Below, piece after piece: positions 307 through 20,038 of a stretch of DNA of 20,106 nt. Within the stretch, counting starts at the first letter, position 1. Every line of letters starts with the position of its first letter. A program made the translations under genes and the position numbers. The notes beneath the pieces were generated by a model. It was not told where the DNA came from, made no database searches, and saw only the letters and a program-made list of their open reading frames with translations. This DNA comes from a virus, in IMG/VR virus record IMGVR_UViG_3300010885_029431, positions 1 to 20,106 of that record; one strand, written 5' to 3'.

Positions 307-343
307 GCTTGACATTTATGAATACAGGCGCTATGATTACAAT
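282..343 (+). promoter_or_regulatory. Promoter P1, sigma70/SigA-type, leaderless geometry
   Basis: The -35 box TTGACA is at 309-314 and the -10 box TATGAT at 332-337, with a 17-bp spacer, essentially full consensus. The -10 box ends 6 bp before a GTG at 344, so the expected start of transcription falls on the start codon. An imperfect AT-rich palindrome (ATATTTAGAAATAT, 282-295) lies 13 bp upstream of the -35 box. About 26 bp from just upstream of the -35 box into the spacer are identical to promoter P3 on the minus strand near 18152. It should drive the small-gene operon 344-2209. Confidence 0.85.
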
Positions 344-394
344 GTGACTCGCAGACAGACCAATCCGAGTCACCCCGAGACAAAGGAAGTATGA
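344..394 (+). CDS. 16-residue leaderless leader ORF
   Basis: The GTG lies exactly where P1 transcription should begin (6 bp after TATGAT). The ORF encodes MTRRQTNPSHPETKEV and stops with TGA at 392-394, inside the ATGACAATG that starts the next gene. A Shine-Dalgarno-like AAGGAAG sits at its end. The arrangement resembles the other leaderless first ORFs in this window (11165, 18122), which also overlap or abut the next start and begin with Met-Thr. It could be a leader peptide that couples translation to the downstream zinc-knuckle gene. No homology is claimed; the support is the promoter position and the stop/start overlap. Confidence 0.55.
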   Translation: MTRRQTNPSHPETKEV

Positions 395-396
395 CA

Positions 397-600
397 ATGA
401 GAAACGAGCCTGCCGATGAGGAACACGCAGCAAGCCACCTGGAGTTCTGCCCAATATGTCAAGGCGAAATGACTGATGAAGATGCCCCGTTCTGCTCACC
501 GAAATGCGCCGCCGATTATGTCGTGGTTGCCGCTCAGGAACACGAAAAGGAATACGGTGGAGTGTGGGAGAGGAATACGGTGGAGTGTGATTATGACTGA
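397..600 (+). CDS. Small zinc-ribbon protein
   Basis: This 67-residue protein carries CPIC near residue 18 and a second half-site FCSPKC about 14 residues later, the typical C-x2-C...C-x3-C zinc-binding treble-clef or ribbon pattern (compare DUF2116-like small zinc-ribbon proteins, whose second half is FCS.eC). Start choice: ATG at 397 is 7-9 bp from AAGGAAG, better than the ATG at 391, which overlaps the preceding stop. It is the second gene of the P1 operon and overlaps the next gene by 8 bp. Its last codons lie in a 23-bp direct duplication (550-589) that shifted the stop and added about eight residues. Role unknown; possibly DNA- or protein-binding. Confidence 0.7.
   Translation: MRNEPADEEHAASHLEFCPICQGEMTDEDAPFCSPKCAADYVVVAAQEHEKEYGGVWERNTVECDYD
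550..589 (+). repeat. 23-bp direct tandem duplication at a gene junction
   Basis: GAATACGGTGGAGTGTG occurs at 550-566 and again at 573-589, with a period of 23 bp. The second copy is followed by the ATG of the next gene. Without the duplication the upstream frame would read GAA TAC GGT GGA GTG TGA and stop. With it, the frame continues to TGA at 598. The duplication also doubles the GGAG that serves as ribosome-binding site for the gene at 593. Confidence 0.9.
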
Positions 601-1036
601 CGAGGAACTGACTCAACTGGTACGGGATTACTCAGTCCACCTGATGAACGAGGGTTCGGGTGACGGCACAATCTACGCCTGTTATTCGGATGCCGAAATC
701 ATAACTCAGTTTGGCGGCAAGACTAAGGCGCAAGTCCTCAGAAAAGTCGCTAAACTAGACAAGGCAACCGCTAACCGATTTAATGAAGTCCGTATGTTTT
801 CGGGCGAATATGAGATGGTAAACGGGGTCTCGGTTTCTAAGTATGAGTTGGAAGCCCGAGCCGAGATTGCCCGACTCAAAGCCGAAGCCGAGGCCGATGC
901 TGAAGAGGAAGCCAAACACCAAGCCAGGCTGCTCGCAGACCCCGAATATGCCGCATACGAAGCGAGTTGGGCAAGTACCAACGCTGCTGAACTTGAGGCA
1001 GAGCGCCGAAGCGGGTTCCGCCCTGGAGAGTGGTAA
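593..1036 (+). CDS. Hypothetical protein with Ala/Glu-rich coiled-coil segment
   Basis: The ATG at 593 is 7 bp after GGAG and overlaps the previous stop (ATGACTGA), indicating translational coupling; an upstream in-frame ATG at 476 lies inside the zinc-ribbon gene and was not chosen. The 147-residue product has an N-terminal globular part (MTDEELTQLVRDYSVHL...) and, from about residue 84, a long charged helix (ELEARAEIARLKAEAEAD...) that should form a coiled coil, ending in a tryptophan. I do not recognise the family. It is a member of the P1 operon of small genes. Confidence 0.72.
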   Translation: MTDEELTQLVRDYSVHLMNEGSGDGTIYACYSDAEIITQFGGKTKAQVLRKVAKLDKATANRFNEVRMFSGEYEMVNGVSVSKYELEARAEIARLKAEAEADAEEEAKHQARLLADPEYAAYEASWASTNAAELEAERRSGFRPGEW

Positions 1037-1038
1037 GA

Positions 1039-1371
1039 ATGAAAACGCTAAAGCCTATTCCTGACGGTCTGCCATTTCTACTGTGGTTAGAAACGCAGCG
1101 TGAAGAGACCGTTATGGACAATGCCGTTCCCCTAGATATTCCAGGGGTTCACAAGGCATATTCTAAAGGCGGTCTAGAAACCGCAACTCTTTTATGCGAA
1201 GCGGTAATCAGGCAGATTGTCGCCTTTGACTCCGACGACTCAGATGCCCCAAAAACTTGGGCGCTGCTACTACAAAGGCTTTGGGAGATTGGACTACAAA
1301 ATCCCAATACTAAAAAACAAGCAAAAGGCATTATCGCCTCAAGAGAAGGATACCTAAATGGAGAAATGTGA
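1039..1371 (+). CDS. Hypothetical protein, 110 residues
   Basis: The ATG at 1039 follows GGAGAG at 1025-1030 with normal spacing, just after the stop of the previous gene (1034-1036); a GTG at 1030 in the same frame is less favoured. The product begins MKTLKPIPDGLPFLLWLETQ and contains a predicted all-helical middle (TATLLCEAVIRQIVAFDSDD). No family recognised. It overlaps the next gene by 14 bp, as expected for genes co-translated from the P1 transcript. Confidence 0.68.
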   Translation: MKTLKPIPDGLPFLLWLETQREETVMDNAVPLDIPGVHKAYSKGGLETATLLCEAVIRQIVAFDSDDSDAPKTWALLLQRLWEIGLQNPNTKKQAKGIIASREGYLNGEM

Positions 1372-1651
1372 TAAGTGCGAAGAGGAACTAGACGAAGCCG
1401 AAATATGGCTTTGTACGGGGACAGGCAACGACCCCATATGTTCGGACTGTAGAGCAGACGAACAACTAGCGTCTTACCTGGATGAAATACGAACTATGCG
1501 ATGGGAAATAGAAGCCTTATCGGTGGCATTACGGGAAGCCATTGCGGGCAATGTGGAGATGAGCAACCTGCTGCCAAACTGGAGTGCGGTTGTGTCCAAG
1601 ACTACGGCAGACATCATCGTGGCCGCTATGCTGAACGCCCAACAGGTATGA
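1358..1651 (+). CDS. Small protein with N-terminal zinc knuckle
   Basis: The 97-residue product starts MEKCDKCEEEL and has a second pair CSDC about 20 residues later, giving C-x2-C...C-x2-C, a likely structural zinc site. The remainder is helical (YLDEIRTMRWEIEALSVALREA). The ATG at 1358 is preceded by GAAGGA with 8-bp spacing. It overlaps the previous gene by 14 bp and the next start by 4 bp (ATGA). Function unknown; the metal knuckle suggests a nucleic-acid or protein-binding adaptor. Confidence 0.7.
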   Translation: MEKCDKCEEELDEAEIWLCTGTGNDPICSDCRADEQLASYLDEIRTMRWEIEALSVALREAIAGNVEMSNLLPNWSAVVSKTTADIIVAAMLNAQQV

Positions 1652-1959
1652 AGCCAGCAACCATTATAAGTGCCAAGTTCAGAATAAACCGAGAAGGGGT
1701 CAAAGGCTACCCGCAAGCATTAGATAGCCTGATTATCGCTGGACTAATGCCGCTGCTGAACGAGAACGGCGATTGTGTCAATGTGGAGTCTCAGAGCGGG
1801 CTTGAAGAGTATTTAGATGAGATTGAACCAGCATTGCGGGCGCTGACTCCACTCATCTCCGATAACTCCGTTATACTTTGGCAAGAAGGTCACAAACGGT
1901 GGAAAACACTCGTTCGTGGAGATACACTATTAACAATCTACCCAACAGGGCGATTATAA
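1648..1959 (+). CDS. Hypothetical protein, 103 residues
   Basis: The start is set at ATG 1648, where ATGA overlaps the stop of the preceding gene (TGA 1649-1651), a classical coupling arrangement; longer in-frame starts from 1501 lie wholly inside that gene. The product begins MKPATIISAKFRINREG and contains an acidic helix (SGLEEYLDEIEPALRAL) and a C-terminal beta-like segment (SVILWQEGHKRWKTLVRGD). No family recognised. Part of the P1 operon. Confidence 0.62.
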   Translation: MKPATIISAKFRINREGVKGYPQALDSLIIAGLMPLLNENGDCVNVESQSGLEEYLDEIEPALRALTPLISDNSVILWQEGHKRWKTLVRGDTLLTIYPTGRL

Positions 1960-1975
1960 CTATGAGAGGGAACAA

Positions 1976-2209
1976 ATGATTTTTGACATCGTGAAAACTA
2001 ATGAAGAGGGCGGCGCTTGGCTAGTCAAAGCCTCAACTACCGTTTGGGCTGATGACAGTCACGCAGCAGAAAAGGTTGAAACTGGAGTGTGGTCGTTTAG
2101 AACACTTACGGCAGCACGGCGGTTCATTACAAGTGTGGTGAAAACAGACAAGCGTGTTCGGATGACCAAAACCGATAACTCTAATACCAGTTATGTTTAT
2201 CGGGGCTGA
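1976..2209 (+). CDS. Hypothetical protein, 77 residues
   Basis: The ATG at 1976 follows GAGAGGG about 5 bp upstream, 16 bp after the previous stop. The product (MIFDIVKTNEEGGAWLVKAS...) looks like an alpha/beta fold with a basic C-terminal tail (KTDKRVRMTKTD). It resembles in style the 66-residue protein at 19770-19970 (a KAYVIRTNEGFYLQVTDKDYAL region with 'TA.. F' helices), but I cannot claim homology. It is the last gene of the P1 operon and its 3' end overlaps convergent whiB by 13 bp. Confidence 0.62.
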   Translation: MIFDIVKTNEEGGAWLVKASTTVWADDSHAAEKVETGVWSFRTLTAARRFITSVVKTDKRVRMTKTDNSNTSYVYRG

Positions 2210-2475
2210 GAGCGAAGCCGCCTATTCCGTTTGTAGGTGAACCGTTGGCGCTCAGTCATCCCGCCCCAAACCCCCCAATGCTGATGATTGTCAATCGCAT
2301 ACTTAAGACAGTCATCTCTGACAGGGCAGCGTGAACAAGTTTCTAACGCCTCAGATGGCCGAACCCCTGAAGGTGGATAAAACAAGTTTATATCCATCCC
2401 AGCGCACAATGATTCAAGTATCCATTTGCCAGGCGGCGGCGGGGGAACAGGCAAATCATCATCGGCTTTACTCAC
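2197..2475 (-). CDS. whiB: WhiB-family iron-sulfur transcription factor
   Basis: The 92-residue product has the four-cysteine signature (Cys24, Cys47, Cys50 and Cys56; spacing C...C-x2-C-x5-C) and the G-V-W-G-G turn at 68-72, followed by a basic tail (RNRRLRSQPR). These features define WhiB proteins, which bind a [4Fe-4S] cluster, contact region 4 of the housekeeping sigma factor and act at promoters; they are restricted to actinobacteria and their phages. An unusual N-terminal proline run (VPPPPPG) precedes the domain. The GTG start at 2475 has no Shine-Dalgarno, but TAGCGT ends 6 bp upstream (2482-2487), the same leaderless geometry as elsewhere in the window. It stands alone, convergent to the P1 operon and divergent from the ParB block, so it may regulate phage promoters or manipulate host WhiB circuits. 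Confidence 0.93.
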   Translation of the reverse strand: MSKADDDLPVPPPPPGKWILESLCAGMDINLFYPPSGVRPSEALETCSRCPVRDDCLKYAIDNHQHWGVWGGMTERQRFTYKRNRRLRSQPR

Positions 2476-2562
2476 ACGGCTACGCTACATTAAATAATAG
2501 GCTTATGATGGTTAGCACCTCTGACACAATCTAGAGGCGTTCTTAGAGTCAAGGAGAGGGCA
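2476..2562. promoter_or_regulatory. Divergent control region between whiB and the ParB block
   Basis: On the plus strand TATGAT (2504-2509), the same -10 hexamer as P1-P3, precedes the rightward block, but I find no good -35 box at 16-18 bp. AAGGAGAGG (2551-2559) is a strong ribosome-binding site for the ATG at 2563. On the minus strand TAGCGT (2482-2487) sits 6 bp from the whiB GTG. GAGGCGTTCTTAGAG (2534-2548) resembles the core of the dispersed repeat described at 10138, 15106 and 17270. Confidence 0.45.
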
Positions 2563-3030
2563 ATGGTTGAAGATGTAGAGGTGAATAGATTATCTAGACA
2601 TCCCTTAAACCCTAGAGAGGGCGATATTGGTGCTATCGCCACCAGTATTCAACAGAACGGATGGTTCGGAACTGTCGTTGCTCAACGCTCTACAGGTCAG
2701 GTCATCGCAGGTAACCATCGTTTAGAAGCAGCGAAGATACTGGGGTTTAAGAGTGTTCCTGTCTATTGGGTGGACTGCGACGATGAGCAGGCGCTCAGAA
2801 TGTTGTTGGCAGATAACCGCACTTCGGATTTAGCCAGTTATGACATTGAGCAACTGTCGGAAATCCTTGTAGGGCTTATTGAGACTGACGGACTGTTGGG
2901 AACGGGTTATGACGGCGATGACTTAGACAGTCTGCTGAAAGAGGCTAAAAGATTACCGCCCGACTTCCCCGACTTATTTACTCCCTTCACACATCATTGC
3001 CCTCGTTGCTACTACTCTTGGGAAACATAA
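2563..3030 (+). CDS. ParB/sulfiredoxin-fold protein (IbrB-like), C-terminal zinc hook
   Basis: The 155-residue protein shows a ParB N-terminal domain: NPREGD (15-21), SIQQNGW (28-34), the diagnostic GNHR at 50-53, then a helix ending LADNRTSDLASYD (82-94). The C-terminus has CPRC at 146-149, typical of stand-alone phage ParB-like proteins that end in CPxCGYxW. The ParB fold binds or hydrolyses CTP in partition proteins; in phages it occurs next to DNA methylases and PAPS-reductase-like proteins, as in the enterobacterial IbrA/IbrB regulator pair. Here an IbrA-like gene follows at 3905, and the methylase at 5053 begins with the module usually fused behind such a ParB domain. First gene of the rightward block, with a strong RBS. 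The biochemical role is not known. Confidence 0.82.
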   Translation: MVEDVEVNRLSRHPLNPREGDIGAIATSIQQNGWFGTVVAQRSTGQVIAGNHRLEAAKILGFKSVPVYWVDCDDEQALRMLLADNRTSDLASYDIEQLSEILVGLIETDGLLGTGYDGDDLDSLLKEAKRLPPDFPDLFTPFTHHCPRCYYSWET

Positions 3031-3031
3031 G

Positions 3032-3235
3032 ATGACTAAGCCGAAAAAAGGATTAACAAAAGAATGTTCAAAGATTATCGCCGTCAGAGTGGCACAAGTT
3101 GATTACGACATTATCCAGTCTGTGGCGACGAATAGAGAAGTTTGCGCTTCCGATATTGTTCGGTGGGCAATCGCCGTTTGGCAGGACTCCGAGTGGGAAG
3201 CCATACAACGAGCCGTTAGTCGCCAGGTCATATAA
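3032..3235 (+). CDS. Ribbon-helix-helix-like small DNA-binding protein
   Basis: The ATG at 3032 is one base after the previous stop, so translation is probably coupled. The 67-residue product has a short beta strand (KIIAVRVAQVD) followed by two helices (YDIIQSVATNREVCASDIV and RWAIAVWQ), the arrangement of Arc/MetJ-type ribbon-helix-helix repressors. Such proteins dimerise and bind palindromic operators, often their own promoter. The 3' part of the gene overlaps the next open frame. Assignment is from predicted secondary structure pattern only. Confidence 0.6.
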   Translation: MTKPKKGLTKECSKIIAVRVAQVDYDIIQSVATNREVCASDIVRWAIAVWQDSEWEAIQRAVSRQVI

Positions 3236-3908
3236 CGACTTCTATTCGCAACCTGTCTATGAGTATGAGAACCAGGTTGTTCAGAGGGTATTGAAGCCAT
3301 TATTGGAATCGGCAGCGGTTCTTGACCTCGGGGCGGGGACAGGCCTGGTTTTACAACTGACCAATCCTGCCTTCTACTATGCCGCAGACTCTTCCGCTGA
3401 AATGCTACAAGCGATACTGGACAACCATTACGACAGTATGAGTCGGACTCAAAAAGAAAACATATTTACTATTAAAGCCGACTTACAAGACCCGTTTGAC
3501 CTTCGTTATCTCCAAGAGCAATGCCAGTACCTCGGGGACATAGATGCTATAACGGCATTGTGGGCTGCTCATCATTTCCACGGGCAAGAAACTTACAACG
3601 CTATGTTTCAGATTGTTTCTCCCTCGGGAATGGTATTCTTTCACGGCAATATGCCTAGACGGAAGTATCGTCGTTGCCCCCCTTGGCTGAAACACGATTA
3701 CGATAAAACCTTCAACCCGAGAACGATGAAGGCTAAGATGAAAGCGGCTGGTTTTACCGATATAACGGTTGTCGGGTTTAACGCTGTACCTGACTGGCTT
3801 ATCCGCTTTATCCCCAGTAAGTGGGCTGCTGAAATCATTTGGCTTACACGGCTCATCCCAGCAAGATATCATTACAACGCCGCTGTTATCGGAAGGAAAC
3901 CATCGTGA
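3156..3908 (+). CDS. Class I SAM-dependent methyltransferase
   Basis: The product contains the Rossmann motif I AVLDLGAGTGLVLQL, an acidic motif II position (AADSSAEM) and a later ITALWAAHHFH segment, typical of small-molecule or protein SAM methyltransferases; there is no DPPY/DPPW, so it is not an obvious DNA N-methylase. The start is uncertain. The conserved N-terminal part (SYNDFYSQPVYEYENQ) begins immediately around the stop of the upstream ribbon-helix-helix gene, but no ATG/GTG lies there; TTG codons at 3156 or 3099, both inside that gene, are the only candidates, and 3156 is used here. The ORF ends 4 bp into the next gene. It could modify a base intermediate, a cofactor or a host protein. 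Confidence 0.72.
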   Translation: MFGGQSPFGRTPSGKPYNEPLVARSYNDFYSQPVYEYENQVVQRVLKPLLESAAVLDLGAGTGLVLQLTNPAFYYAADSSAEMLQAILDNHYDSMSRTQKENIFTIKADLQDPFDLRYLQEQCQYLGDIDAITALWAAHHFHGQETYNAMFQIVSPSGMVFFHGNMPRRKYRRCPPWLKHDYDKTFNPRTMKAKMKAAGFTDITVVGFNAVPDWLIRFIPSKWAAEIIWLTRLIPARYHYNAAVIGRKPS

Positions 3909-5056: not shown

Positions 5057-5784
5057 AAATACACAACATAGCCGAAGACGGTTCGTGGCGCTACTCAGGG
5101 AAACACAAAGACATCCCTGTTCAACCTGGCGACATTTGGCGGGTAGGCGAACATATATTCGTTTGCGGCGACATAGAAGGAGACCAAGCGAGCAGTCCCC
5201 TGAGTACGCTGTTGAAATCTCATCCGCCAACCCTTATCTACGCAGACCCGCCTTGGGGTTCGGGTTTGGCAAGGTCATATCGGACTAAGGCAGGCTCAGA
5301 TAACGGTTCAGGCAGAGCGGTGGACTTCCCTAACCTTATAAGGTCATTACTGTTGCCCGCTAAGACCTACAAAACTGTCGCCTATGTGGAGAATGGCGTT
5401 CGTGAAGAGCGAGTGCTGAAAGAGACTCTCATTGAGATGGGCGCTACGATAACGGGACATTGGAATACGACTTATTATAAGACGAAGCCAGCAATCCTTT
5501 ACGCTGCTGATTTCCGACCTGTGCCTCAGACAGACCACCCCGACTTCACAGGCGTTGATGACGAATACACTCCTTTAATGGCGTTAAGACATCATCCTGT
5601 CGGAACAGTCTTAGACCCTTGTGCTGGAAGAGGTCTAACCGCTAGAACCGCACAAACTTTAGGGTGGAAATCTATTAATCACGAGTTATCCCCATACCGT
5701 ATGGCGGAAGCACTTGATAGTATATTTAGGATGACCGACCAACCCATAGAGAGAGTTTTATATGAGCGAGACCCCATTAAATGA
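5053..5784 (+). CDS. DNA adenine N6-methyltransferase-like protein (DPPW type)
   Basis: The protein (243 residues) starts with PGDIWRVGEHIFVCGD (25-40), the linker found between ParB and methylase domains in ParB-methylase fusions. It then has motif IV ADPPW (64-68) followed later by motif I VLDPCAGRGLTA (186-197). Motif IV before motif I marks a beta-class amino-methyltransferase, and DPPW is typical of adenine-N6 enzymes. It is short, with little room for a target-recognition domain. The GTG at 5053 overlaps the upstream stop; GGGGAGG at 5034-5040 is the likely ribosome site. Likely role: methylating phage DNA against host restriction, or preparing adenines for further modification. It overlaps the next gene by 23 bp. 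Confidence 0.8.
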   Translation: MKIHNIAEDGSWRYSGKHKDIPVQPGDIWRVGEHIFVCGDIEGDQASSPLSTLLKSHPPTLIYADPPWGSGLARSYRTKAGSDNGSGRAVDFPNLIRSLLLPAKTYKTVAYVENGVREERVLKETLIEMGATITGHWNTTYYKTKPAILYAADFRPVPQTDHPDFTGVDDEYTPLMALRHHPVGTVLDPCAGRGLTARTAQTLGWKSINHELSPYRMAEALDSIFRMTDQPIERVLYERDPIK

Positions 5785-6115: not shown

Positions 6116-6117
6116 AG

Positions 6118-7579: not shown

Positions 7580-7611
7580 GCTATGTTTACAACACCTAGA
7601 AGGGTACGACA

Positions 7612-10612: not shown

Positions 10613-10981
10613 TCAGAGTGTGTACCCTATTTGCTTGAGGACTTGAGCGTGCGTTAGGCAGCGCCCCTCAACACTCCACAGTCTTTCGCCTATGCTGTAT
10701 TGGTCAGGCTGCTTCTCTCGTGCCGTCACTACATTACTGAAGGCTGGCCAGGATAGAATCCCAGCGTAGTTTTCCGCCTTGTGGCAGTTCACCCCCACGA
10801 CTTCCCAGGATTGGTCGCCGCAGACATACGGCGGGTCAAGCCTATAAAGCCATCCATCTGCTTTCCTCATCTTCCTTATCTTGGTTGCTTTGCCCATCTT
10901 GGTCTCCTTCGTTTGGTCGGTTGTCTTACTGATTTGAGGTCTCATCTTCTCACCCCCTTCCTGAGTGGTCTCTCGTGTCAT
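10613..10981 (-). CDS. Hypothetical protein, leaderless, 122 residues
   Basis: The ATG at 10981 begins 6 bp after the P5 -10 box, so translation should start leaderless (MTRETTQEGGEK...). Two further in-frame ATGs have their own ribosome sites: residue 13, and especially residue 29 (ATG at 10897) after AAGGAG with 7-bp spacing. The conserved-looking part starts near residue 29 (MGKATKIRKMRKADGWLYRLDPPYVCG) and contains WSVEGRCLTHAQVLKQIGY at the end. The first 28 polar residues may therefore be a fused leader. DPPY here lacks methylase context. No family recognised. Confidence 0.65.
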   Translation of the reverse strand: MTRETTQEGGEKMRPQISKTTDQTKETKMGKATKIRKMRKADGWLYRLDPPYVCGDQSWEVVGVNCHKAENYAGILSWPAFSNVVTAREKQPDQYSIGERLWSVEGRCLTHAQVLKQIGYTL

Positions 10982-11031
10982 ACCCCAATGATAGCATAAT
11001 ATATGAGCCCTGTCAAGTCATATATTTCTGA
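10982..11031 (-). promoter_or_regulatory. Promoter P5, leaderless geometry
   Basis: On the minus strand TTGACA (11016-11011) and TATCAT (10993-10988) are separated by 17 bp. The -10 box ends 6 bp before the ATG at 10981. The box TCAGAAATATAT (11031-11020) just upstream of the -35 box is shared with P2 and P3. P5 and P2 are back to back in a 183-bp intergenic region. A small CCCG-AAA-CGGG hairpin (from about 11036) lies between them. Confidence 0.8.
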
Positions 11032-11082: not shown

Positions 11083-11164
11083 TCAGAAATATATTTATAA
11101 ATATATCTAAAGAAATCTGCGATATGGGCTTGACATTTAGAAATCTATAAGGTATGATTACAAT
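11083..11164 (+). promoter_or_regulatory. Promoter P2 with AT-rich palindrome, leaderless geometry
   Basis: TTGACA (11130-11135) and TATGAT (11153-11158) have 17-bp spacing, and the next six bases, TACAAT, are the same as in P1 before the start codon. Upstream are TCAGAAATATAT (11083-11094) and a perfect 14-bp palindrome ATATTTATAAATAT (11091-11104), identical to that of P3. The segment 11097-11118 is also shared with P4. P2 should drive 11165-12436. Confidence 0.85.
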
Positions 11165-11356
11165 ATGACATCACATACACTCACAGAGAAGACCGAAACC
11201 GTAGCCCAAGTCCGAAGCCGCCAAAGCATTTGGGTGGGCTGGATGATGGAAGCAACCCGAGGTCTAAAAGACAACGACCTCGTAGTAACCGTCACCCTAA
11301 CATACCCATTTGGGCGCTACCTACAATCCATCACCCCAATAGCAAAAGGAGAATGA
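11165..11356 (+). CDS. Leaderless small protein, 63 residues
   Basis: The ATG at 11165 coincides with the predicted P2 transcription start, and there is no Shine-Dalgarno. The product begins MTSHTLTEKTETVAQVRSRQ and continues SIWVGWMMEATRGLKDNDLVVTVTLTYPFGRYL, suggesting a beta-rich C-terminal half. No family recognised. Its stop (TGA 11354-11356) lies within ATGACAATG at the start of the next gene, the same junction sequence as at 391-399. It opens the plus half of the divergent cassette between terminase and portal. Confidence 0.68.
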   Translation: MTSHTLTEKTETVAQVRSRQSIWVGWMMEATRGLKDNDLVVTVTLTYPFGRYLQSITPIAKGE

Positions 11357-11358
11357 CA

Positions 11359-12489: not shown

Positions 12490-12566
12490 AACCTGTTCTC
12501 CCACTACCACACTCAAACGGCAACAGGTTTGAGCAACAAACATAATCACAGTTAATCCGCTATTGT
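12490..12566 (+). promoter_or_regulatory. Alternative hairpins and -10 box upstream of portal
   Basis: CTCAAAC (12512-12518) pairs with GTTTGAG (12527-12533) in a 7-bp stem. AACCTGTT (12490-12497) pairs with AACAGGTT (12522-12529). The two stems share bases 12527-12529 and so are mutually exclusive. TATTGT (12561-12566) is a -10-like hexamer exactly 6 bp before GTG 12573. No convincing -35 box is seen. The region 12437-12489 holds nothing I can name. Confidence 0.4.
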
Positions 12567-12572
12567 ATGTTT

Positions 12573-13898: not shown

Positions 13899-13899
13899 T

Positions 13900-16605
13900 G
13901 TGCGTTCCCCAATCGGCATTATCCAACGCACAGGGTGGACACGCCTACCCCTGAGCAAGTCTAGCGTTCGCCCTGGGGGACAACAGGCATACAAACCTAT
14001 TGGCAGCAGCCTCTCCTCTTCCGAGAAACGGTTATCTGACCTGATTCAAGAGGCATACAACAGTATTCCAACCGCAGTCTATTCCGCTGATCTTACTGAG
14101 TCTGCCATTGCGGCACAAAACAAACTGGCGTTATCCACCCTGACCTCATACAGCGAACGGTTCCAAGAGGTACTCCAAGCCCAATATGAGGCTTCCGCAG
14201 AGTTAGGAGTTAAAGAACTAAGAGCCATCCTGAGCCGCAGTTGGGCAAAGTTAAGTAAAGCGAGCGATGCCTTACCTTCTAAAGCGATTCAGTCCTGGGG
14301 CTTCAACGGCAAAGGAGTAGCGGCTGCTGACTGGGCAAAAACCGAAGCAGGCAAACTGATTACCAATATGACGGTCACCCAACAGGAAACATTCCGCCAG
14401 GTCATAAACACTTCGCAGACACTCGGGAGAACCCCCGCAACCTCAGCAAGAGTGCTTGTAGAAACACTCAACTCTGTCGCCCCTTCAACCCCAACAGCCA
14501 TAAGCCTTTCAACGCTACTGGGCGTAAATGCCAACGGGTTGACAGTCCGATATGAGCAGGCGGTTGTCAACAGAGCAACCAGCGTTGCCCAGTCGTTGGC
14601 TGATAAAGGCATAACTGGACAGAAGGCAGTAGATAAGGTCAGAGCAGACACACAAAAGTACGCTGACCAGTTGCGGCGCTCTCGGAGTGTAACCATCGCC
14701 AGGACTGAAACGATGATGGCAAACAACGAAGGGAGACTCGCCACCTTCCAACAGGCAGTCAACGACGGGATGCTTTCAAAAGAACACTCACGGAAGATTT
14801 GGTCAACCAGCCCGATGGATGTCTGCCCTATCTGTGTTCCGCTGAACGGTCAGATGGTCAAGATAGACGAAGAGTTTTCTAATGGTCGCTTAACGCCGCC
14901 TGCTCATCCTCGCTGCCGCTGCTCATTTGACATTGAACCCAATGTGAAACTGTACGAACCGCCAACAGCCGTTGGGTCAGGTACGCCTTCCGACCCGTAC
15001 CGTTTCCAACAGGCAGATAACCTGTTCACTCCCCAGGGCAGCGCCTTATCTCAACAGGGTTTCGGTGCTGATATGAGCGCCCCTACGGCCCCACCTGTGT
15101 TGCCCGAGGCGCTCACAGCGAATCCTAGAACGGGTACTTTTGATAAACCGATTGATTTCAGTCGGGAAACGGCTCAAACGAGTAACGGGCGACTGAGGAT
15201 GAAAGAAGCATTTGAAGAGTTTAAGCCCACCGAAACGCATACAAGAGTTATCCAAGACTTAGATTCCCCTGCTGGCAGGGACATCCCGACCCTCATTAGC
15301 CGAACACAACTGGATGAGGTTGCCGAGGATAAAGCCCGCAAGATACTTGAAGAGGTTGACGACCTCATTGCCAACTCCGAATCGGTCATCCCTGACCAAG
15401 GCTTCCAGGCAGTTATAAGGGGGGCGTTTGACATCACAGATGAGGCAGCCCGAGACCTTATAACCTCAGACGGTGGAGACATCTTTTACAACCCTCAACA
15501 TCTCAGAGTTAATACTTATGGCTTAGAAAGAAAAGGTATTGGTTGGCGTGTTGAAGCATCCTTTGTGGAAGGAACACGCTTTGTCCCAATAAATACTACT
15601 TCGGGCGAGATACTGATGCCCAGGGGAATGAGTTATGTTGTGACATCGGTGGATGAGGCGACACGAATCATTACCGTCAGTTATAACACCCCGCCGCCGT
15701 TCGTCTCACCAACGCCACTCCCTACGAATACGATGGTTCACAGGCTAAGAGACGGGCTCAAGGCTAATGGTTATGCGGCCTGGCAAGACCCCATAATACA
15801 AACACTCAGAGAGGGCGAAGTGATTGTATATGAGGGAATCATTCCTGGATTCGGCTCATTAAATACGATACAGGGTTCCATCATCACTCGCCAGCAAGGC
15901 GTTATCATCATTGAGGAAGTGTTTGAACAGTCAAGGCTTTCCGAGGTTGTAAGACAAGGTAAACTGCTTTCTCAAAACAAAGTGATTGACTTTAATGCGG
16001 ATTGGGCTCAACAGGGAAATATCGGTCAGACCATTAGACAAACTGTGGAGACGCTTAAACAGGTTGCGTCTGTTATTCCCGAATCCAGTCCAACATTCAC
16101 AAGGCAAATAGTATTAAGTCTAAAAGCAAACCCACAAGATGCTAACTGGGCTAAAAAATATAATATGCCTGGGTTTACCTCGGGGGCGACAGGTGGCAGA
16201 TATGCCATATTCTCTTATGGTGGCAGACCAGTTGGAGTTGGAACTTTTGGTCACGAGTTTGGTCACGGGTTAGACCACTCAACCATCTTTGGGTCGTTTC
16301 GGGTTTCCGAGTCGCCCGCCTGGACTGAGGCAGCCAAATCCGATTCTAGGACCACATTTAAGATGGTTCCGCCCTGGGAATACGCAACGGGGAATAAGAG
16401 AGCAATCTTCGGCAGCCGTTTCATAAGTAAATATGCTTTCTCATCGCACTCCGATATAGAAGACTTCGCAGAGTCAGTAGCCTTATACCTTCAAGACCGC
16501 AACTCTGGTTATCTAGTTAGTCACCCCGACACAGGGGTGGTTAAAACCTTTGCCGACTTATTCCCCGAGAGGGCAAAGATACTAAGAGGCATCTTCGGGG
16601 TCTAG
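13900..16605 (+). CDS. MuF head-morphogenesis protein fused to C-terminal zinc metallopeptidase
   Basis: Residues about 265-341 form the MuF domain: IARTETMMANNEG, then SPMDVCPICVPLNGQ (cysteines near 309) and PPAHPRCRC (336-341). MuF proteins bind the portal inside the capsid and can be ejected with DNA. From about 345 the protein has a low-complexity linker, a region around 560-580 (SGEILMPRGMSYVV) that faintly resembles the last strands of ADP-ribosyltransferase exoenzymes, and a C-terminal domain with HEFGHGLDH at 785-793 and a downstream DIEDFAESV (about 852-860). That is the HExxH plus glutamate pattern of zinc peptidases, like the anthrax-lethal-factor-type (ATLF) family. Known MuF proteins with variable C-terminal toxin domains make this a candidate injected effector. 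GTG start, one base after portal. Confidence 0.85.
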   Translation: MRSPIGIIQRTGWTRLPLSKSSVRPGGQQAYKPIGSSLSSSEKRLSDLIQEAYNSIPTAVYSADLTESAIAAQNKLALSTLTSYSERFQEVLQAQYEASAELGVKELRAILSRSWAKLSKASDALPSKAIQSWGFNGKGVAAADWAKTEAGKLITNMTVTQQETFRQVINTSQTLGRTPATSARVLVETLNSVAPSTPTAISLSTLLGVNANGLTVRYEQAVVNRATSVAQSLADKGITGQKAVDKVRADTQKYADQLRRSRSVTIARTETMMANNEGRLATFQQAVNDGMLSKEHSRKIWSTSPMDVCPICVPLNGQMVKIDEEFSNGRLTPPAHPRCRCSFDIEPNVKLYEPPTAVGSGTPSDPYRFQQADNLFTPQGSALSQQGFGADMSAPTAPPVLPEALTANPRTGTFDKPIDFSRETAQTSNGRLRMKEAFEEFKPTETHTRVIQDLDSPAGRDIPTLISRTQLDEVAEDKARKILEEVDDLIANSESVIPDQGFQAVIRGAFDITDEAARDLITSDGGDIFYNPQHLRVNTYGLERKGIGWRVEASFVEGTRFVPINTTSGEILMPRGMSYVVTSVDEATRIITVSYNTPPPFVSPTPLPTNTMVHRLRDGLKANGYAAWQDPIIQTLREGEVIVYEGIIPGFGSLNTIQGSIITRQQGVIIIEEVFEQSRLSEVVRQGKLLSQNKVIDFNADWAQQGNIGQTIRQTVETLKQVASVIPESSPTFTRQIVLSLKANPQDANWAKKYNMPGFTSGATGGRYAIFSYGGRPVGVGTFGHEFGHGLDHSTIFGSFRVSESPAWTEAAKSDSRTTFKMVPPWEYATGNKRAIFGSRFISKYAFSSHSDIEDFAESVALYLQDRNSGYLVSHPDTGVVKTFADLFPERAKILRGIFGV
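15106..15132 (+). repeat. Dispersed imperfect repeat, copy 2 (inside MuF gene)
   Basis: This 27-bp segment matches 25 of 27 positions of the copy at 17270-17296. Here it is coding (EALTANPRT, residues 403-411) and lies in the linker between the conserved MuF domain and the variable C-terminal part of the protein. Confidence 0.7.
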
Positions 16606-16767
16606 TGGAGTCCCTGCTGAACCATCCACACTTCCATAGGTTCTCAACAGTTGCCCGTCTTGTATAAACTCAATCTCAAAGGTTTTAGCCTCTTTAGATG
16701 AAGGCGCAACAACATTGCCATCTTTGTCAAAGAACTTCTGACGGTTTATGAAGGGTTTATCGGGCAT
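16582..16767 (-). CDS. Small antisense gene overlapping the MuF 3' end
   Basis: The 61-residue product (MPDKPFINRQKFFDKDGNVV..., then TFEIEFIQDGQLLRTYG) has a natural-looking hydrophilic, beta-rich composition and an acidic end. TAGTCT lies 6 bp before the ATG (16779-16774), with TTGGTT 16 bp further upstream as a weak -35 box, so a leaderless start is plausible. Its last 24 bp are antisense to the metallopeptidase end. It could be a regulator, a structural protein or an antidote to the MuF effector; nothing in the sequence decides this. Confidence 0.6.
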   Translation of the reverse strand: MPDKPFINRQKFFDKDGNVVAPSSKEAKTFEIEFIQDGQLLRTYGSVDGSAGTPLDPEDAS

Positions 16768-16803
16768 ACAAGCAGACTACCACCCGCAGGTGAAAAACCA
16801 ACT

Positions 16804-16822
16804 GTTATAGTATTCTATAACA
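16804..16822 (+). promoter_or_regulatory. Perfect inverted repeat and -10 box before the 16823 gene
   Basis: GTTATAG (16804-16810) and CTATAAC (16815-16821) form a perfect inverted repeat around TATT, ending two bases before the ATG. TATTCT (16811-16816) is a -10-like hexamer ending 6 bp before the start codon. A repressor bound to this operator-like site would cover the -10 box. No -35 box is visible. Confidence 0.45.
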
Positions 16823-17251
16823 ATGCCTACCGCCCCAAAGATTACTGTGCCTTCATATATTGCTGCTAATGCCACAAGAGGCCTGTCTCATTTGAAACAC
16901 GCTGGCAACGGGTTGCGACCTAAGACTGTTCGTGAGGCGAGACTGATGGCAGCAGGGTCTATTAGTGCTGATAAGGCAATGAGGATGGCAGCCTGGTTCG
17001 CAAGGCACGAAAGCGACTTAAACATTAAGGAAGCCCGAGACTACCTTTCGGGTGCTTCGGAAAGCCCAACCGCTGGACAAGTCGCTTGGCTGCTTTGGGG
17101 TGGAGACCTGGGCGAGAACCGTTTGCGGGCAATGGAGTGGGCTGCCGCAACCCGAGACAGGCAAGACAAAGCAAACGACGATGTTGCCAAAGGACTATCC
17201 AGTTCGGTGACTGAGTTGCCGCAGAGAAGAGCCCATAACGGGTGGGGCTGA
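16823..17251 (+). CDS. Hypothetical phage protein with GQVAWLLWGGD motif
   Basis: The 142-residue product has VPSYIAANATRGLSHLKHAG, then REARLMAAGSISADKAMRMAAWFARHESD and GQVAWLLWGGDLGENRLRAMEWA. I associate this pattern (helical ARxMA.G.IS..K..RM..WFARH..D...GxVAWLLWGGD) with a recurrent module of actinophage head-region proteins, but I cannot name its function. No ribosome site precedes the ATG; TATTCT at 6 bp suggests a leaderless start. It follows the MuF gene and may be a structural or scaffold-related protein. A hairpin and a repeat copy follow its stop. Confidence 0.72.
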   Translation: MPTAPKITVPSYIAANATRGLSHLKHAGNGLRPKTVREARLMAAGSISADKAMRMAAWFARHESDLNIKEARDYLSGASESPTAGQVAWLLWGGDLGENRLRAMEWAAATRDRQDKANDDVAKGLSSSVTELPQRRAHNGWG

Positions 17252-17269
17252 CATACCTATTTTAGAATA

Positions 17270-17296
17270 GAGGCGCTCACAGAGCATCCTAGAACG
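17270..17296 (+). repeat. Dispersed imperfect repeat, copy 3
   Basis: This copy begins GAGGCGCTCACAGAGCATCC and lies 19 bp after the stop of the 16823 gene, in the convergent gap before the minus gene ending at 17355. It matches the in-gene copy at 15106 in 25 of 27 bases and the copy at 10138 in 23 of 27. A small CTATT-TTAG-AATAG hairpin (from about 17258) directly precedes it. Confidence 0.7.
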
Positions 17297-17320
17297 ACCT
17301 ATATTGCCCTTATAGCAACA

Positions 17321-17341
17321 TATCGGGGCTTTCGCCCGATA
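17321..17341. terminator. Hairpin in convergent gap, GAAA loop on minus strand
   Basis: TATCGGG (17321-17327) pairs with CCCGATA (17335-17341). Allowing one bulged G, the stem extends by a G-C pair and leaves a four-base loop that reads GAAA on the minus strand. It lies between two converging genes. No T-run follows on either strand, so it may be a processing or rho-independent-like barrier rather than a strong terminator. Confidence 0.45.
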
Positions 17342-17354
17342 ATGCCGAGACAGG

Positions 17355-17693
17355 TTAGACCGAATACCCTCTGAGGTTCGGGGCAGTCTCATCCACAAAG
17401 CGGAAACGCCTGACCACATTTCGCATCTTGCCATAACTCATTTCCAGGGTCTCCACTTGCCACAGGTGAAACTCCACTTCGGAGACTACAGGTTCCGCCT
17501 TGAGTACCGCTTCCCACTCTGCCGATAACGCCTTGACACACTTGAGCGCCATCCGTTCGCTGCCGTGTGAGTGGTGGCAACCACGAGTTGTCTCTCTTCC
17601 ACCTAGAAACACGGCGGCGTGGTGAATATCGTGTTTGACGATATCGCTGTAACCCACCTTGACCGCTTTTACTGAGTAGTCTGTCAAGTCCAT
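17355..17693 (-). CDS. Hypothetical protein, 112 residues
   Basis: The ATG at 17693 follows AAGGAG with 7-bp spacing and lies just after the upstream stop at 17695; a longer frame to 17735 lacks support. The product (MDLTDYSVKAVKVGYSDIVKHDIHHAAVFLGG...) has several histidines in two clusters (KHDIHHAA, GCHHSHGSE), perhaps a metal site, and a C-terminal strand-rich part. No family recognised. Last gene of the P3 operon. Confidence 0.65.
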   Translation of the reverse strand: MDLTDYSVKAVKVGYSDIVKHDIHHAAVFLGGRETTRGCHHSHGSERMALKCVKALSAEWEAVLKAEPVVSEVEFHLWQVETLEMSYGKMRNVVRRFRFVDETAPNLRGYSV

Positions 17694-17694
17694 C

Positions 17695-17994
17695 TTATTC
17701 TCCTTCGCTCTCTGATGAGGCTTCCACCAGGGCATCTTGGCGGTCTGATTCTCGCTGCTCTTCGGCGGTCAGGCGGCGGGACAGGCTTCGCAGCATTGCC
17801 CGTCTTGCCCATATTTCCTGACGGCGGGCAGCGAGTTCGCAGTTGGCGGTGGCTTCCAGTAGCATCGCATCCACTTCGGCCCCCTTCTCGGGGTCAGAAA
17901 TGCTTTGGCGGATGATTCGGAGTACCTCAACCCCTTCCCGCATTTGGGACAGTAGTTGAGCCTCTCTTTGTCTCTGTGCTGATGTCGTTACCAC
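17695..17994 (-). CDS. Hypothetical coiled-coil protein, 99 residues
   Basis: The start is placed at GTG 17994, overlapping the stop of the upstream leaderless ORF (TAA 17990-17988) and about 10 bp after AAGGGAG; TTG 18001-18003 is in frame but too close to that site. The product (TTSAQRQREAQLLSQMREGVEVLRIIRQS...RRQEIWARRAMLRSLSRRL) is almost wholly helical and charged, with an acidic serine-rich tail (EASSESEGE). Likely a coiled coil; no family recognised. Confidence 0.6.
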   Translation of the reverse strand: MVTTSAQRQREAQLLSQMREGVEVLRIIRQSISDPEKGAEVDAMLLEATANCELAARRQEIWARRAMLRSLSRRLTAEEQRESDRQDALVEASSESEGE

Positions 17995-18122
17995 GAGGCA
18001 CAATCTCCCTTATCCTGGGAGTGGTCTATTTGGCATCCTTGAGTTCCCGCTTCGCAGGGCTCAGATTCCTCTCTGTCTGCTGCTACGATTCGGATGATTT
18101 GGGTGGTCTGTGCTGATGTCAT
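17988..18122 (-). CDS. Leaderless 44-residue ORF
   Basis: The ATG at 18122 is exactly 6 bp after the P3 -10 box. The 44-codon ORF encodes MTSAQTTQIIRIVAADREES followed by an acidic, cysteine-containing end (PCEAGTQGCQ). Its stop overlaps the next gene's GTG, indicating coupling. The N-terminal MTSAQ echoes TTSAQ at the start of the next protein. It is too short for family assignment; the promoter and overlap are the evidence. Confidence 0.55.
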   Translation of the reverse strand: MTSAQTTQIIRIVAADREESEPCEAGTQGCQIDHSQDKGDCASW

Positions 18123-18192
18123 ATAGTAATCATACGGCATATATTCATAAATGTCAAGCCTATATCAAAGATATTTATAAATATATTTCTGA
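18123..18192 (-). promoter_or_regulatory. Promoter P3 with AT-rich palindrome, leaderless geometry
   Basis: On the minus strand TTGACA (18157-18152) and TATGAT (18134-18129) are 17 bp apart, and TACTAT separates the -10 box from the ATG at 18122. The perfect palindrome ATATTTATAAATAT (18184-18171) ends 13 bp upstream of the -35 box, the same distance as in P1. TCAGAAATATAT (18192-18181) matches P2 and P5. It should drive 18122-17355. Confidence 0.85.
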
Positions 18193-18194
18193 GC

Positions 18195-18210
18195 AGGAAC
18201 TATCGTTCCT
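18195..18210 (-). terminator. Hairpin over the stop codon of the Mom-like gene
   Basis: AGGAAC (18195-18200) and GTTCCT (18205-18210) form a 6-bp perfect stem with a 4-base loop; the TAG stop of the upstream gene lies in the loop and stem. The minus strand then enters the AT-rich P3 upstream region. A weak intrinsic terminator separating the two minus operons is likely. Confidence 0.45.
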
Positions 18211-19132
18211 TCGGATATGGATAAACCTTATTCCTCTGCTCAAAGAGACTCTTCAGTTGCCGAGTCTCCGAACGGTTGCCACCAAGGACAAGAGCATACT
18301 TATGTTTAAGACTGACAGGGATACGAACAGATGAAGCCTGCTTATCCTTACTCATAAGCCGCAACGCTGACTCCACCTCACTCGGCACAAACTCCCACAA
18401 CATCTTTTGGTCGTTACTCCACTCACGCTTCCACACAATCCCCAACTCTTTAGCATATTGCTTATAAGCAGACCTCACTCTGAAAAAGCGGTCAGAAACG
18501 ACCTTGCCCGTATAAGGATTTATGTACCTGGCAGCAGCCCCCGAGTTCTGCCCCAAATAGTAGAAGTTACAAGCCTGATAAATGGTTCCTAACTCTTTCG
18601 CCGTTGTGTCAGAGTAGGCGGTGAACAATCTGTATTCGCTATTACGGCTCATCCAATGGCAGCACCACATTAGAAACGATGAAGCGAGGTTCTTGGGACT
18701 CCAGGATATACAAGCGCCACGACTTATAAGCCTTTCCAGTTTCGGAGTCTCTTCACCTAGAAGTTTAGAAAAACTGTTAGGCATATTCATAAGGATTACT
18801 CCAGCGAGATGACCCTTGTAATACGCCCCAAACCAATGGGTTGTAAACTGAGATAAAGTCCCAAGCCATTCGTGCCTCTTTATAAACGCTGCCGCCTCAC
18901 CCTTCCGACTCGGAGTTATAATGACCCGATACTCAAAGTCGCTTACTGTTAAGCGGGCTGTCTCCATAAGGGTGAGTCCGACATCAGAAAGGTCACGGGT
19001 AAGGTTTCTGAGCCTTATCTCATATTGCCAACAATGAGACCCTTCGTAAAGGGCGGTTTGAGCATACGGGTCTGCCGATAAAGACGGTTCCTCTACTTCA
19101 AACAGGGTTGGCTGTTTGCTGATGTCACTCAC
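18200..19132 (-). CDS. Mom-like adenine-modification protein (GNAT fold)
   Basis: The 310-residue product carries the block order of phage Mu Mom and Mom-like acetyltransferase-fold proteins: FIKRHEWLGTLSQFTTHWFGAYYKGHLAGVILMNMP (after residue 80), then LERLISRGACISWSPKNLASSF, and RLFTAYSDTTAKELGTIYQACNFYYLG. The D...G.iYqA.NF.Y.G ending is diagnostic. Mom converts adenine in DNA to a carbamoylmethyl-type N6 derivative that blocks many restriction enzymes. The first 60 residues (DISKQPTLFEVEEP) form an extra polar extension. The GTG at 19132 is 6 bp after the upstream stop; the ribosome site is weak, so coupling is likely. Last gene of the P4 operon. Confidence 0.83.
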   Translation of the reverse strand: MSDISKQPTLFEVEEPSLSADPYAQTALYEGSHCWQYEIRLRNLTRDLSDVGLTLMETARLTVSDFEYRVIITPSRKGEAAAFIKRHEWLGTLSQFTTHWFGAYYKGHLAGVILMNMPNSFSKLLGEETPKLERLISRGACISWSPKNLASSFLMWCCHWMSRNSEYRLFTAYSDTTAKELGTIYQACNFYYLGQNSGAAARYINPYTGKVVSDRFFRVRSAYKQYAKELGIVWKREWSNDQKMLWEFVPSEVESALRLMSKDKQASSVRIPVSLKHKYALVLGGNRSETRQLKSLFEQRNKVYPYPKER

Positions 19133-19138
19133 GGATGG

Positions 19139-19366
19139 TTAACGCCCCTGGTTATGGGCTGACATTGTGTGATGGCAGACAATCGCCTTATCTAAGGCAT
19201 CGTTGAGGCTTCGGATTCGCTGCCGCTGCTCAGAGTACGGGCAAGCATAGGTAAACATTTCTATGATTTGACCATCGGTAAAATACTCTTCTATTGGGGA
19301 ACCTGAGCCGATACCGATAAGGGGATGGCTACGAACCGCACTTATAAACTCTTCATCATCAAACAT
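19139..19366 (-). CDS. Hypothetical acidic protein, 75 residues
   Basis: The ATG at 19366 has GGAG with 6-bp spacing and is 2 bp after the previous stop. The product (MFDDEEFISAVRSHPLIGIGSGSPIEEYFTDGQII...) has an acidic N-terminal helix and a helical C-terminal half (RIRSLNDALDKAIVCHH). No family recognised. It directly precedes the Mom-like gene in the P4 operon and may be a partner. Confidence 0.65.
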   Translation of the reverse strand: MFDDEEFISAVRSHPLIGIGSGSPIEEYFTDGQIIEMFTYACPYSEQRQRIRSLNDALDKAIVCHHTMSAHNQGR

Positions 19367-19368
19367 TA

Positions 19369-19599
19369 CTACTCCATTTCTCTCTTGACCTTGCGAGCCA
19401 TCTTTAACACTCTGAGCATCACAGGGTCGTCAAACTTATCGGGGAGACACAACCCGTTGGGCAGGGCGTTCTCCAGTCTGTCGGCAAAGTCTTCACGCTT
19501 CAGAGGCTCATCCACAAACCACGATTCCACAACCTCAGCGATGAGTTCCTCAATCTCTTGGGTGATGTCCTCAAAGGTCATTGTGCGATATTCGCTCAC
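19369..19599 (-). CDS. Hypothetical acidic helical protein, 76 residues
   Basis: GTG at 19599 follows GGAG with 6-bp spacing and overlaps the preceding stop (GTGA); TTG at 19611 would be longer but lacks a site. The product (MSEYRTMTFEDITQEIEELIAEVVESWF...) is rich in glutamate and helical, with a basic end (MARKVKREME). No family recognised. Confidence 0.62.
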   Translation of the reverse strand: MSEYRTMTFEDITQEIEELIAEVVESWFVDEPLKREDFADRLENALPNGLCLPDKFDDPVMLRVLKMARKVKREME

Positions 19600-19739
19600 T
19601 TGGCTCTCCAACCTTTAAGGTCGTTGTAGGGGCCGTCTTGGTCATCGTTGCCGTAGTAGTCCTTTTCGGCTTGGTATTGGTCATCTGCTCTGTCTTCGGC
19701 ATCGTGACCGCAACAGGGTCGGTCTTCGCATTGGCACAT
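19596..19739 (-). CDS. Cysteine-rich small protein, 47 residues
   Basis: The ATG at 19739 is preceded by AAGGAGAT with about 5-6 bp spacing, a strong ribosome site. The product starts MCQCEDRPCCGHDAED and continues with a tyrosine- and aspartate-rich segment to WRAK. The CxC...CC.H cluster suggests a metal site. Its TGA overlaps the GTG of the next gene by 4 bp. It is short enough to be missed by a length cutoff of about 60 codons. No family recognised; the MCECH start of the 12083 gene is similar. Confidence 0.65.
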   Translation of the reverse strand: MCQCEDRPCCGHDAEDRADDQYQAEKDYYGNDDQDGPYNDLKGWRAK

Positions 19740-19769
19740 ACTTATCTCCTTCGTGGTGGTGGTTGGTGT

Positions 19770-19970
19770 TTAGAGGTCGCCGTCTATGCGGAAGTCGTTG
19801 AGGCTAATCCCGAGAGCCCAAAACAGGCTTCGTGCCTCAGAGTAGGTGCTGAACCCTGTTGCCTCGGCATATTCGGTGGTGAGCGCATAATCTTTATCCG
19901 TGACCTGGAGGTAGAAACCCTCGTTGGTGCGGATGACATACGCCTTTTTGGTGGTGGTGGTCTGTGTCAT
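19770..19970 (-). CDS. Leaderless small protein, 66 residues
   Basis: The ATG at 19970 is 6 bp after the P4 -10 box, making it the expected leaderless start; an in-frame codon at 19985 lies inside the -10 region and is rejected. The product (MTQTTTTKKAYVIRTNEGFYLQVTDKDYALTTEYAEATGF...) looks like a small alpha/beta protein with strands followed by a helix (YSEARSLFWALGISLND). No family recognised. First gene of the operon that ends with the Mom-like gene. Confidence 0.68.
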   Translation of the reverse strand: MTQTTTTKKAYVIRTNEGFYLQVTDKDYALTTEYAEATGFSTYSEARSLFWALGISLNDFRIDGDL

Positions 19971-20038
19971 ATCTGAACTATACACTATGTATTCTCATCT
20001 GTCAACCCCATATTGGAGATTTCTTTAGATATATTTAT
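19971..20038 (-). promoter_or_regulatory. Promoter P4, leaderless geometry
   Basis: On the minus strand TTGACA (20005-20000) and TATAGT (19982-19977) are 17 bp apart; the ATG follows the -10 box by 6 bp. The AT-rich segment 20038-20017 is identical over 22 bp to P2 at 11097-11118, and the bases leading into the -35 box are also nearly the same. It lacks the TCAGAAATATAT box. The last 68 bp of the window (20039-20106) hold no gene I can support. Confidence 0.82.

Follow-up and report, generated by a model that had tools for sequence, protein, structure and literature searches.

Dispersed sigma-A-type promoters that are predicted to start transcription on the start codon in a genome fragment of an uncultured actinophage

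The virus record IMGVR_UViG_3300010885_029431 in IMG/VR is a fragment of the genome of an uncultured actinophage and was analyzed here over its full length of 20,106 bp (the window). It carries five dispersed promoter cores, termed S1 to S5, each with a perfect TTGACA, a 17-nucleotide (nt) spacer and a -10 box that is followed after 6 nt by a start codon, ATG or GTG (RTG). The geometry, its conservation in related phages and the conservation of reading frame described below are properties of the nt sequence itself. Very probably these are promoters of the host sigma-A type that put the first transcribed base (+1) on the RTG, with ribosomes starting at the 5′ end of the mRNA. Beyond the promoters proposed in a sequence-only reading of the window, there is an upstream element, the first codons are A/C-rich, and relatives as well as S2 have a second start that is in frame with the first.

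The sequence-only reading had placed five promoters of this geometry in the window, and all five are present (Table 1). The -10 box is TATGAT at the sites beginning at 309, 11130 and 18157, TATCAT at 11016 and TATAGT at 20005, and it lies 6–7 nt ahead of the start codon in 5/5 cases. The start codon is GTG at S1 (309) and ATG at S2–S5, and the first proteins of all five units begin with fMet-Thr, as was claimed. With a perfect -35 box, at most one mismatch in the -10 box and a spacer of 16–18 nt, exactly five sites are found in the window, and in each of them the RTG is at 6 nt; over 300 dinucleotide shuffles the mean number was 0.11 (maximum 1), or 0.007 when RTG at 6–7 nt was also required. 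A stricter pattern search of the window returned three sites versus none in 100 shuffles. S1–S4 are also top-ranked, with a score of 11/12, in a general promoter scan of positions 1–20000 (the site at 20005 begins outside the scanned stretch). The total number of promoter-like sites in that scan, 21, is not above the shuffled value (17.1, standard deviation 4.5).

The promoters were said to be near-identical and to share long stretches pairwise. The first statement applies to S1, S3, S4 and S5, which are closely alike and are found on both strands. S2 shares the boxes and spacing only, and its score with the family motif described below is 3.1 versus 67–77 for the other four. The shared stretches are present: S1–S4 84 nt at 82% identity, S3–S4 75 nt at 81%, S3–S5 74 nt at 77% and S1–S3 70 nt at 77%. 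The window copies and most relatives have the TTGACA, 16–18 nt spacer and TANNNT of sigma-70/sigma-A promoters. There is no usable Shine-Dalgarno (SD) sequence upstream of the leaderless starts, the gap between -10 box and RTG being only 6 nt in the window copies. In four related sequences (L137, L025, L203 and one L020 copy; relatives are denoted by numbers with the prefix L or G) GGAGA or AGAGA is located between the -10 box and the RTG, i.e. upstream of the predicted +1.

Transcription from a promoter with a sigma-A-type -10 box begins about 7 nt past the box, and leaderless mRNAs that begin with RTG are efficiently translated in actinobacteria, e.g. in mycobacteria. In these promoters the -10 box would place the transcription start on the first base of the RTG; this codon would then be 5′-terminal in the mRNA, and ribosomes would have to initiate on it. 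The transcript 5′ ends, the use of the host sigma factor and translation from the RTG are inferred from the sequence. The RTG may be used in three ways: as the only start, with A/C-rich codons after it; as an upstream start that shares its frame with an SD-led ATG 5–13 codons downstream (in the window's family, up to 22); or as the first codon of a mini open reading frame (mini-ORF) that feeds the next gene. The window displays all three formats, i.e. leaderless only (S3, S4, S5), dual in-frame (S2) and mini-ORF (S1).

The sequence-only reading had made the conservation of boxes and spacing in relatives its own test, and both are conserved. A 65-nt motif was built from 13 sequences with the start codon excluded and was run over the collected contigs. 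It gave 27 matches and none in reversed sequences, and RTG is at 6 or 7 nt in 26 of the 27, the exception being L146. The first training set already contained 12 of the matches; the RTG is present in 14 of the 15 that it did not contain. Searches of IMG/VR were made with patterns that leave out the start codon. The first (upstream block, -35 and -10 boxes) yielded 51 stretches, among which ATG is at 6–7 nt in L009/L119, L019/L123/L125/L115, L020, L108 and L126; the remaining stretches have no ATG or GTG at these distances and are in contigs of 26–48% GC, with the exception of L088 (57%). The second yielded 16 distinct promoters with ATG at 6–7 nt in 16/16, several of them already known and one (L204) in a contig of 35% GC. 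In GTDB genomes the second pattern had nine matches, mostly in Clostridia, with ATG or GTG at 6–7 nt in 0/9. An exact pattern with the window's own -10 box and start gave 0 matches.

The distance is also conserved when the upstream element is left out of the definition. Among 127 collected sequences there are 163 such promoter-like sites after removal of exact duplicates, with RTG at 6 nt in 23, at 7 nt in 17 and over 26 other offsets in 61. Because some contigs had been fetched by way of the motif, the count was repeated on sequences found through the portal gene (80 loci were collected out of 121 relatives). In 112 portal-only sequences, window excluded, there are 118 sites; RTG is at 6 nt in nine, at 7 nt in 14 and over 26 other offsets in 53, with no more than six at any single one. 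A 128-kb IMG/VR phage contig (L133) has the same upstream element and TTGACA (-35 box at 11384, + strand) and a G-rich stretch (GGTGGGGGG) in place of the RTG, with no RTG at 6–7 nt.

These could instead be ordinary leadered promoters, where transcription starts elsewhere or the true starts are SD-led and further downstream, the RTG at +1 being incidental. In six copies of the window's family, S2 among them, an SD-led ATG is indeed present in frame 11–22 codons downstream, and the cultured phages Laroye (7/8 strict sites) and Vardy use leadered promoters that contain an SD sequence. However an incidental RTG does not account for its presence in 26/27 motif matches with a sharp peak at only these offsets, nor for a frame that is conserved in 37/37 copies (see below), and S3 and S4 have no SD-led alternative start within 120 nt. 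Ordinary leadered promoters are thus very improbable.

Several observations nevertheless weigh against a transcription start on the RTG. In the cultured actinophages Vardy (28 kb), Laroye, Kovu, DSL-LC01, Ottawa and Kithara (50 kb each), 35 strict promoter-like sites are found and only two, one in Ottawa and one in Laroye, have RTG at 6–7 nt; these six cultured actinophages therefore do not generally share the pattern. The repeats of G008 and G009 that were inspected include no promoter cassette of this type. The G007 family has no recognisable -35 box and in this differs from a sigma-A promoter. For S2 the upstream element is missing, and codon 13 is a good SD-led start. The predicted fold of S1 (-12.4 kcal/mol) is unfavourable for a leaderless start. 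The counts also overstate independence, since copies are alike within a genome and related phages in part contribute copies of one and the same gene.

The Laroye site (L212, position 47327, - strand) has an ATG 6 nt past TACACT, and 14 codons further on an SD-led ATG follows in the same frame. In the Laroye record the annotated start of gene 79 is the leaderless ATG, at 47292. This cultured example is suited to a test of dual initiation.

The second start was counted in five sister families, which were defined by a -10-like box, a distance of 6–7 nt and a repeated leader containing the RTG, with frame not in the definition. SD-led ATGs were scored within 66 nt for ORFs of at least 30 codons, the longest ORF being taken where there were several. 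Such an ATG is present in 37 of the 39 distinct copies and is in frame with the +1 RTG in 37/37, although not all copies are independent, since some genes are counted in more than one related phage and one contig contributes both of its ends. The distance from RTG to SD-led ATG is 5, 7, 8, 9, 10, 11, 12 or 13 codons. The two copies without the ATG are one that the contig end truncates and one that has the leaderless start as its only start. These sister promoters were first read as plainly leadered, a reading that was rejected once the GTG or ATG at +1 proved to be in frame.

A scan independent of the family sequences gave the same result, with 21/22 in frame at offsets 6–7 versus 1/6 elsewhere; the sole out-of-frame case at offsets 6–7 is an ATG inside the S5 gene. 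For contigs found through the portal the values are 19/19 at offsets 6–7 versus 1/6 at other offsets. A fresh IMG/VR scan for one sister family, TAAG, gave seven new matches. Three have a TTG-type -35 box and all three are in frame, two of them sharing one contig and resembling known copies; the four without a TTG-type -35 box have an in-frame SD-led ATG in 0/4. In the window's own family (28 copies), an SD-led ATG occurs within 120 nt in nine. Six of these are in frame at 11–22 codons, including S2, one is out of frame (internal to S5) and two belong to ATGA-coupled mini-ORFs (S1 and one L153 copy). Leaderless small ORFs (5–50 codons) coupled by an RTGA overlap are thus those of S1 (16 codons) and the L153 minus copy (30 codons). 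Three further mini-ORFs of 11–13 codons, two in L134 and one in L135, stop without RTGA overlap. A 5′-terminal start and a downstream SD-led gene on one predicted mRNA are found for S2 and 37/39 sister copies.

Homologous genes differ in start format. The first gene of S3 has homologues that are leaderless (L009), dual-start (L141) and SD-led (L143), and SD-led starts are also present in homologues of the S4 gene (L022, L142). The promoters of L022, L141 and L142 have RTG 6–7 nt past the -10 box and in frame with the SD-led ATG. The leaderless ATG of the S4 gene aligns at, or at most one codon from, the SD-led ATG of its dual-start homologues L142 and L022.

A start codon at +1 may even be an obligate, selected strategy, where 70S ribosomes would bind the mRNA at its 5′ end and then translate through the SD-led start in the same frame, which would give two initiation routes to one protein. 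This stronger proposal is doubtful. A different origin of the in-frame starts is that a few ancestral cassettes were copied together with their reading frame, without selection on two starts. Copies are indeed alike within a genome, and all six G007 copies have a distance of 11 codons. Three pairs of homologous genes in distant genomes, moreover, have promoters that are no more alike (0.46, 0.52 and 0.57) than each promoter is, averaged over its own genome, to the remaining copies (0.58–0.80), one of the three by a narrow margin (0.57 versus 0.58). However the distances vary within families by whole codons, i.e. 5, 7, 8, 10 and 11 in TAAG, 9 and 10 in G010, and 11, 12 and 13 in G011, and the promoter families differ in sequence. 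Mere copying is therefore an unlikely explanation.

Inheritance of the promoters with their genes is not favoured by the three distant pairs. Two pairs between G001 and G002, which are related, have likeness values of 0.81 and 0.68. They are not proven homologues, the first having no gene or flank match and the second being at the same position by flank only, and within-genome homogenisation of promoters is for this reason only suggested. In the L025/L134 pair the protein match starts four residues before the SD-led Met; the leaderless N-terminus therefore looks like an addition. From this small sample it seems that promoter, start codon and first codons were spread together as one module.

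The first codons have an unusual composition. The 21 nt past the start codon are 86% A+C (n = 26); the value for 119 SD-led ORFs from these contigs is 61% (Mann-Whitney p = 2e-12, with copies that are not mutually independent). ACN is the second codon in 19/26 copies versus 20/119 SD-led ORFs. A/C-rich starts are not unique to leaderless genes, since promoter-proximal genes of the dual-start relatives are also somewhat enriched, with an A+C fraction of 0.69 at the SD-led ATG (n = 16) and 0.675 at the RTG (n = 27); the difference is therefore one of degree. In E. coli, according to a review, both leadered and leaderless mRNAs are reported to be translated better when CA repeats follow the start codon (PMC9031893), whereas selections in M. 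smegmatis found no preference in the downstream sequence (PMC4633059). For the first 45 nt the predicted folding energy is close to 0 kcal/mol in S3 and S4, about -5 in S2 and S5 and -12.4 in S1. The mean of the window sites is -4.6 versus -7.7 (standard deviation 3.6) for 1000 random stretches.

The upstream element is conserved over the 26 motif matches that remain when L146 is excluded. It shows TAT at -61 to -59, a AAGAAATC-like block at -55 to -48 and ATA at -43 to -41, with a spacing of the AT blocks of about 9 bp. There is a G at -38, followed by TTGACA and TANNNT, and position -12 is C in 7/26. CCTGC is present at -92 to -72 in 15/26 copies, 10 of them exactly at -86, versus 2.8% of random stretches; in the set of 26 used for CCTGC, symmetry and first codons, two L153 copies are out and S2 and L203 are in. 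Four of the five window cores have this element, with blocks near -60, -51 and -42 and often CCTGC near -86. Its most likely role is to increase or regulate the strength of the promoter, and it may be either an UP-like contact or a regulator site.

If it is the operator of a phage repressor or activator, the module would be primarily an immunity or timing switch and the leaderless format would be secondary. This is a serious possibility, although somewhat short of an even chance. Inverted-repeat arms that match at 8 of 8 positions are located upstream of the -35 box in L020, L108, L139 and S3, long palindromes occur in the TAAG family, and the frequent CCTGC would also suit an operator. However dyad symmetry over all 26 copies is weak (mean 6.46 of 8 versus 5.71 shuffled), and no cognate regulator is identified. 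The spacing of the AT blocks also fits contact with the RNA-polymerase alpha subunit. A simple palindromic operator was rejected, as the symmetry is strong in some copies and weak over all.

A close parallel is in Cluster O mycobacteriophages (Corndog), for which leaderless SigA promoters are predicted (PMC4351075). As is predicted for the window, SigA-like promoters there have +1 at the first position of a start codon, and among them is a pair, PL1/PR2, that is divergent. In Cluster O, however, three leaderless promoters are named among 8–9 predicted, whereas here there are several copies of one extended module per genome, and the available part of that paper does not describe a shared extended upstream element or an in-frame second start. 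One leaderless promoter is predicted in Adephagia (PMC11373665). Mycobacterial leaderless genes also have RTG at +1, and leaderless small ORFs are joined there to the next start through RTGA, like that of S1; however the share of start sites with RTG is 22% in M. tuberculosis, whereas nearly all copies of these phage promoter families have it, and in M. smegmatis no nt preference past the RTG was found, unlike the strongly A/C-rich first codons of the phage group (PMC4633059).

E. coli mRNAs with a 5′-terminal AUG and an SD-led gene resemble the dual-start copies in having both starts on one mRNA, and there 70S ribosomes bind the first start and 30S subunits the second. Those of the tabulated E. 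coli upstream ORFs that were compared stop ahead of the gene or overlap it in another frame, whereas the phage starts share one frame (PMC4965119). Deinococcus-Thermus genomes have TANNNT about 6–7 bp before the start codon of leaderless mRNAs; this is a cellular, genome-wide mode, and here it is a repeated phage module with -35 box and upstream element (PMC12340547). The 50-bp repeat of Gordonia phage Vardy is likewise a dispersed repeated promoter in an actinophage, however it has about 24 nt with GAAAGGA between -10 box and ATG and is therefore leadered (PMC9671010). It was rejected as the same thing as the window family for that reason. Searches of open-access papers listed no description of repeated leaderless phage promoters with an in-frame SD-led second start, most subscription papers being outside the scope of the search.

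Table 1. Positions of the promoter cores, upstream elements and genes in the window.
Feature	Position	Strand	Remarks
S1 core, TTGACA-17-TATGAT-6	309..343	+	
S1 upstream element, -71 to -36	273..308	+	CCTGC at 259-263
S1 leaderless mini-ORF, 16 codons from GTG	344..394	+	stop/next start overlap ATGA at 391-394
S1 unit, second gene	391..600	+	SD-like AAAGGAAG upstream; coupled to mini-ORF
S2 core, TTGACA-17-TATCAT-6	10982..11016	-	divergent from S3; without shared upstream element; TG before -10
S2 first gene	10613..10981	-	leaderless ATG 10981; in-frame ATG 10945 (codon 13) behind GGAAGGGGGTGAG
S3 core, TTGACA-17-TATGAT-6	11130..11164	+	
S3 upstream element	11094..11129	+	holds AAAGAAATC and ATA blocks
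S3 first gene, 63 amino acids (aa), leaderless start	11165..11356	+	
S4 core, TTGACA-17-TATGAT-6	18123..18157	-	
S4 upstream element	18158..18193	-	
S4 first gene, 44 aa	17988..18122	-	
S5 core, TTGACA-17-TATAGT-6	19971..20005	-	
S5 upstream element	20006..20041	-	holds AAAGAAATC and ATA blocks
S5 first gene, 66 aa, leaderless start	19770..19970	-	same-strand genes run on to Mom-family gene at 18200
ParB-like and PAPS-reductase genes	2563-3030, 3905-5056, 6767-7579		

The window has genes for WhiB, terminase, Mu-type portal, MuF, ParB-like and PAPS-reductase proteins. The host is taken to be an actinobacterium because WhiB is present in the window, which bears out the actinobacterial setting that had been proposed, and in 17/21 records of the phage group; the four without WhiB are fragments of 6.9–18.1 kb. 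WhiB was rejected as the specific activator of the promoter family, since it is also present in relatives without the motif and its presence is therefore non-discriminating. Of the cultured phages, Laroye-type Arthrobacter phages match the portal best (about 51–53% identity) and have a similar gene order. A search of phage records found no near-identical record, and Pfam and PHROGs gave nothing for most of the small window genes.

The suggestion that the promoters serve early or moron genes is not borne out. The S3 unit heads toward the portal and MuF genes, the S5 run ends in the Mom-family gene, and the sister record G010 (49 kb) has seven promoter copies spread along the whole contig. No + strand terminator-like site is listed between 11165 and 12567, in a scan that is weak (15 sites versus 20.3 in shuffles).

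Other features of the window are as follows. The Mom-family protein (PF25680, E-value = 9e-14) is encoded by a DNA-modification gene at 18200–19132 (-). A 901-aa MuF-like protein is encoded at 13900–16605 (+), with PF04233 at residues 236–343 and a long C-terminal region that has an HEFGH motif of the kind found in metallopeptidases. A 27-nt repeat (GAGRCGCTC..AGAGCATCCTRGAACG) is located at 10138–10164 and 17270–17296, directly past the ends of + strand gene runs, and a third match is in coding sequence at 15106; the repeat is possibly a terminator or processing element. The gene junction at 544–590 has a 23-bp unit (GGAATACGGTGGAGTGT...) twice in tandem.

Leaderless translation is common in actinobacteria. 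If the two initiation routes are real, they would keep phage genes translated when one route is impaired during infection. The homologous genes with single or dual start are natural paired constructs for asking when initiation at the 5′ end pays off. The finding also has significance for annotation, as gene finders that rely on the SD sequence would miscall the N-termini and mini-ORFs of such phages.

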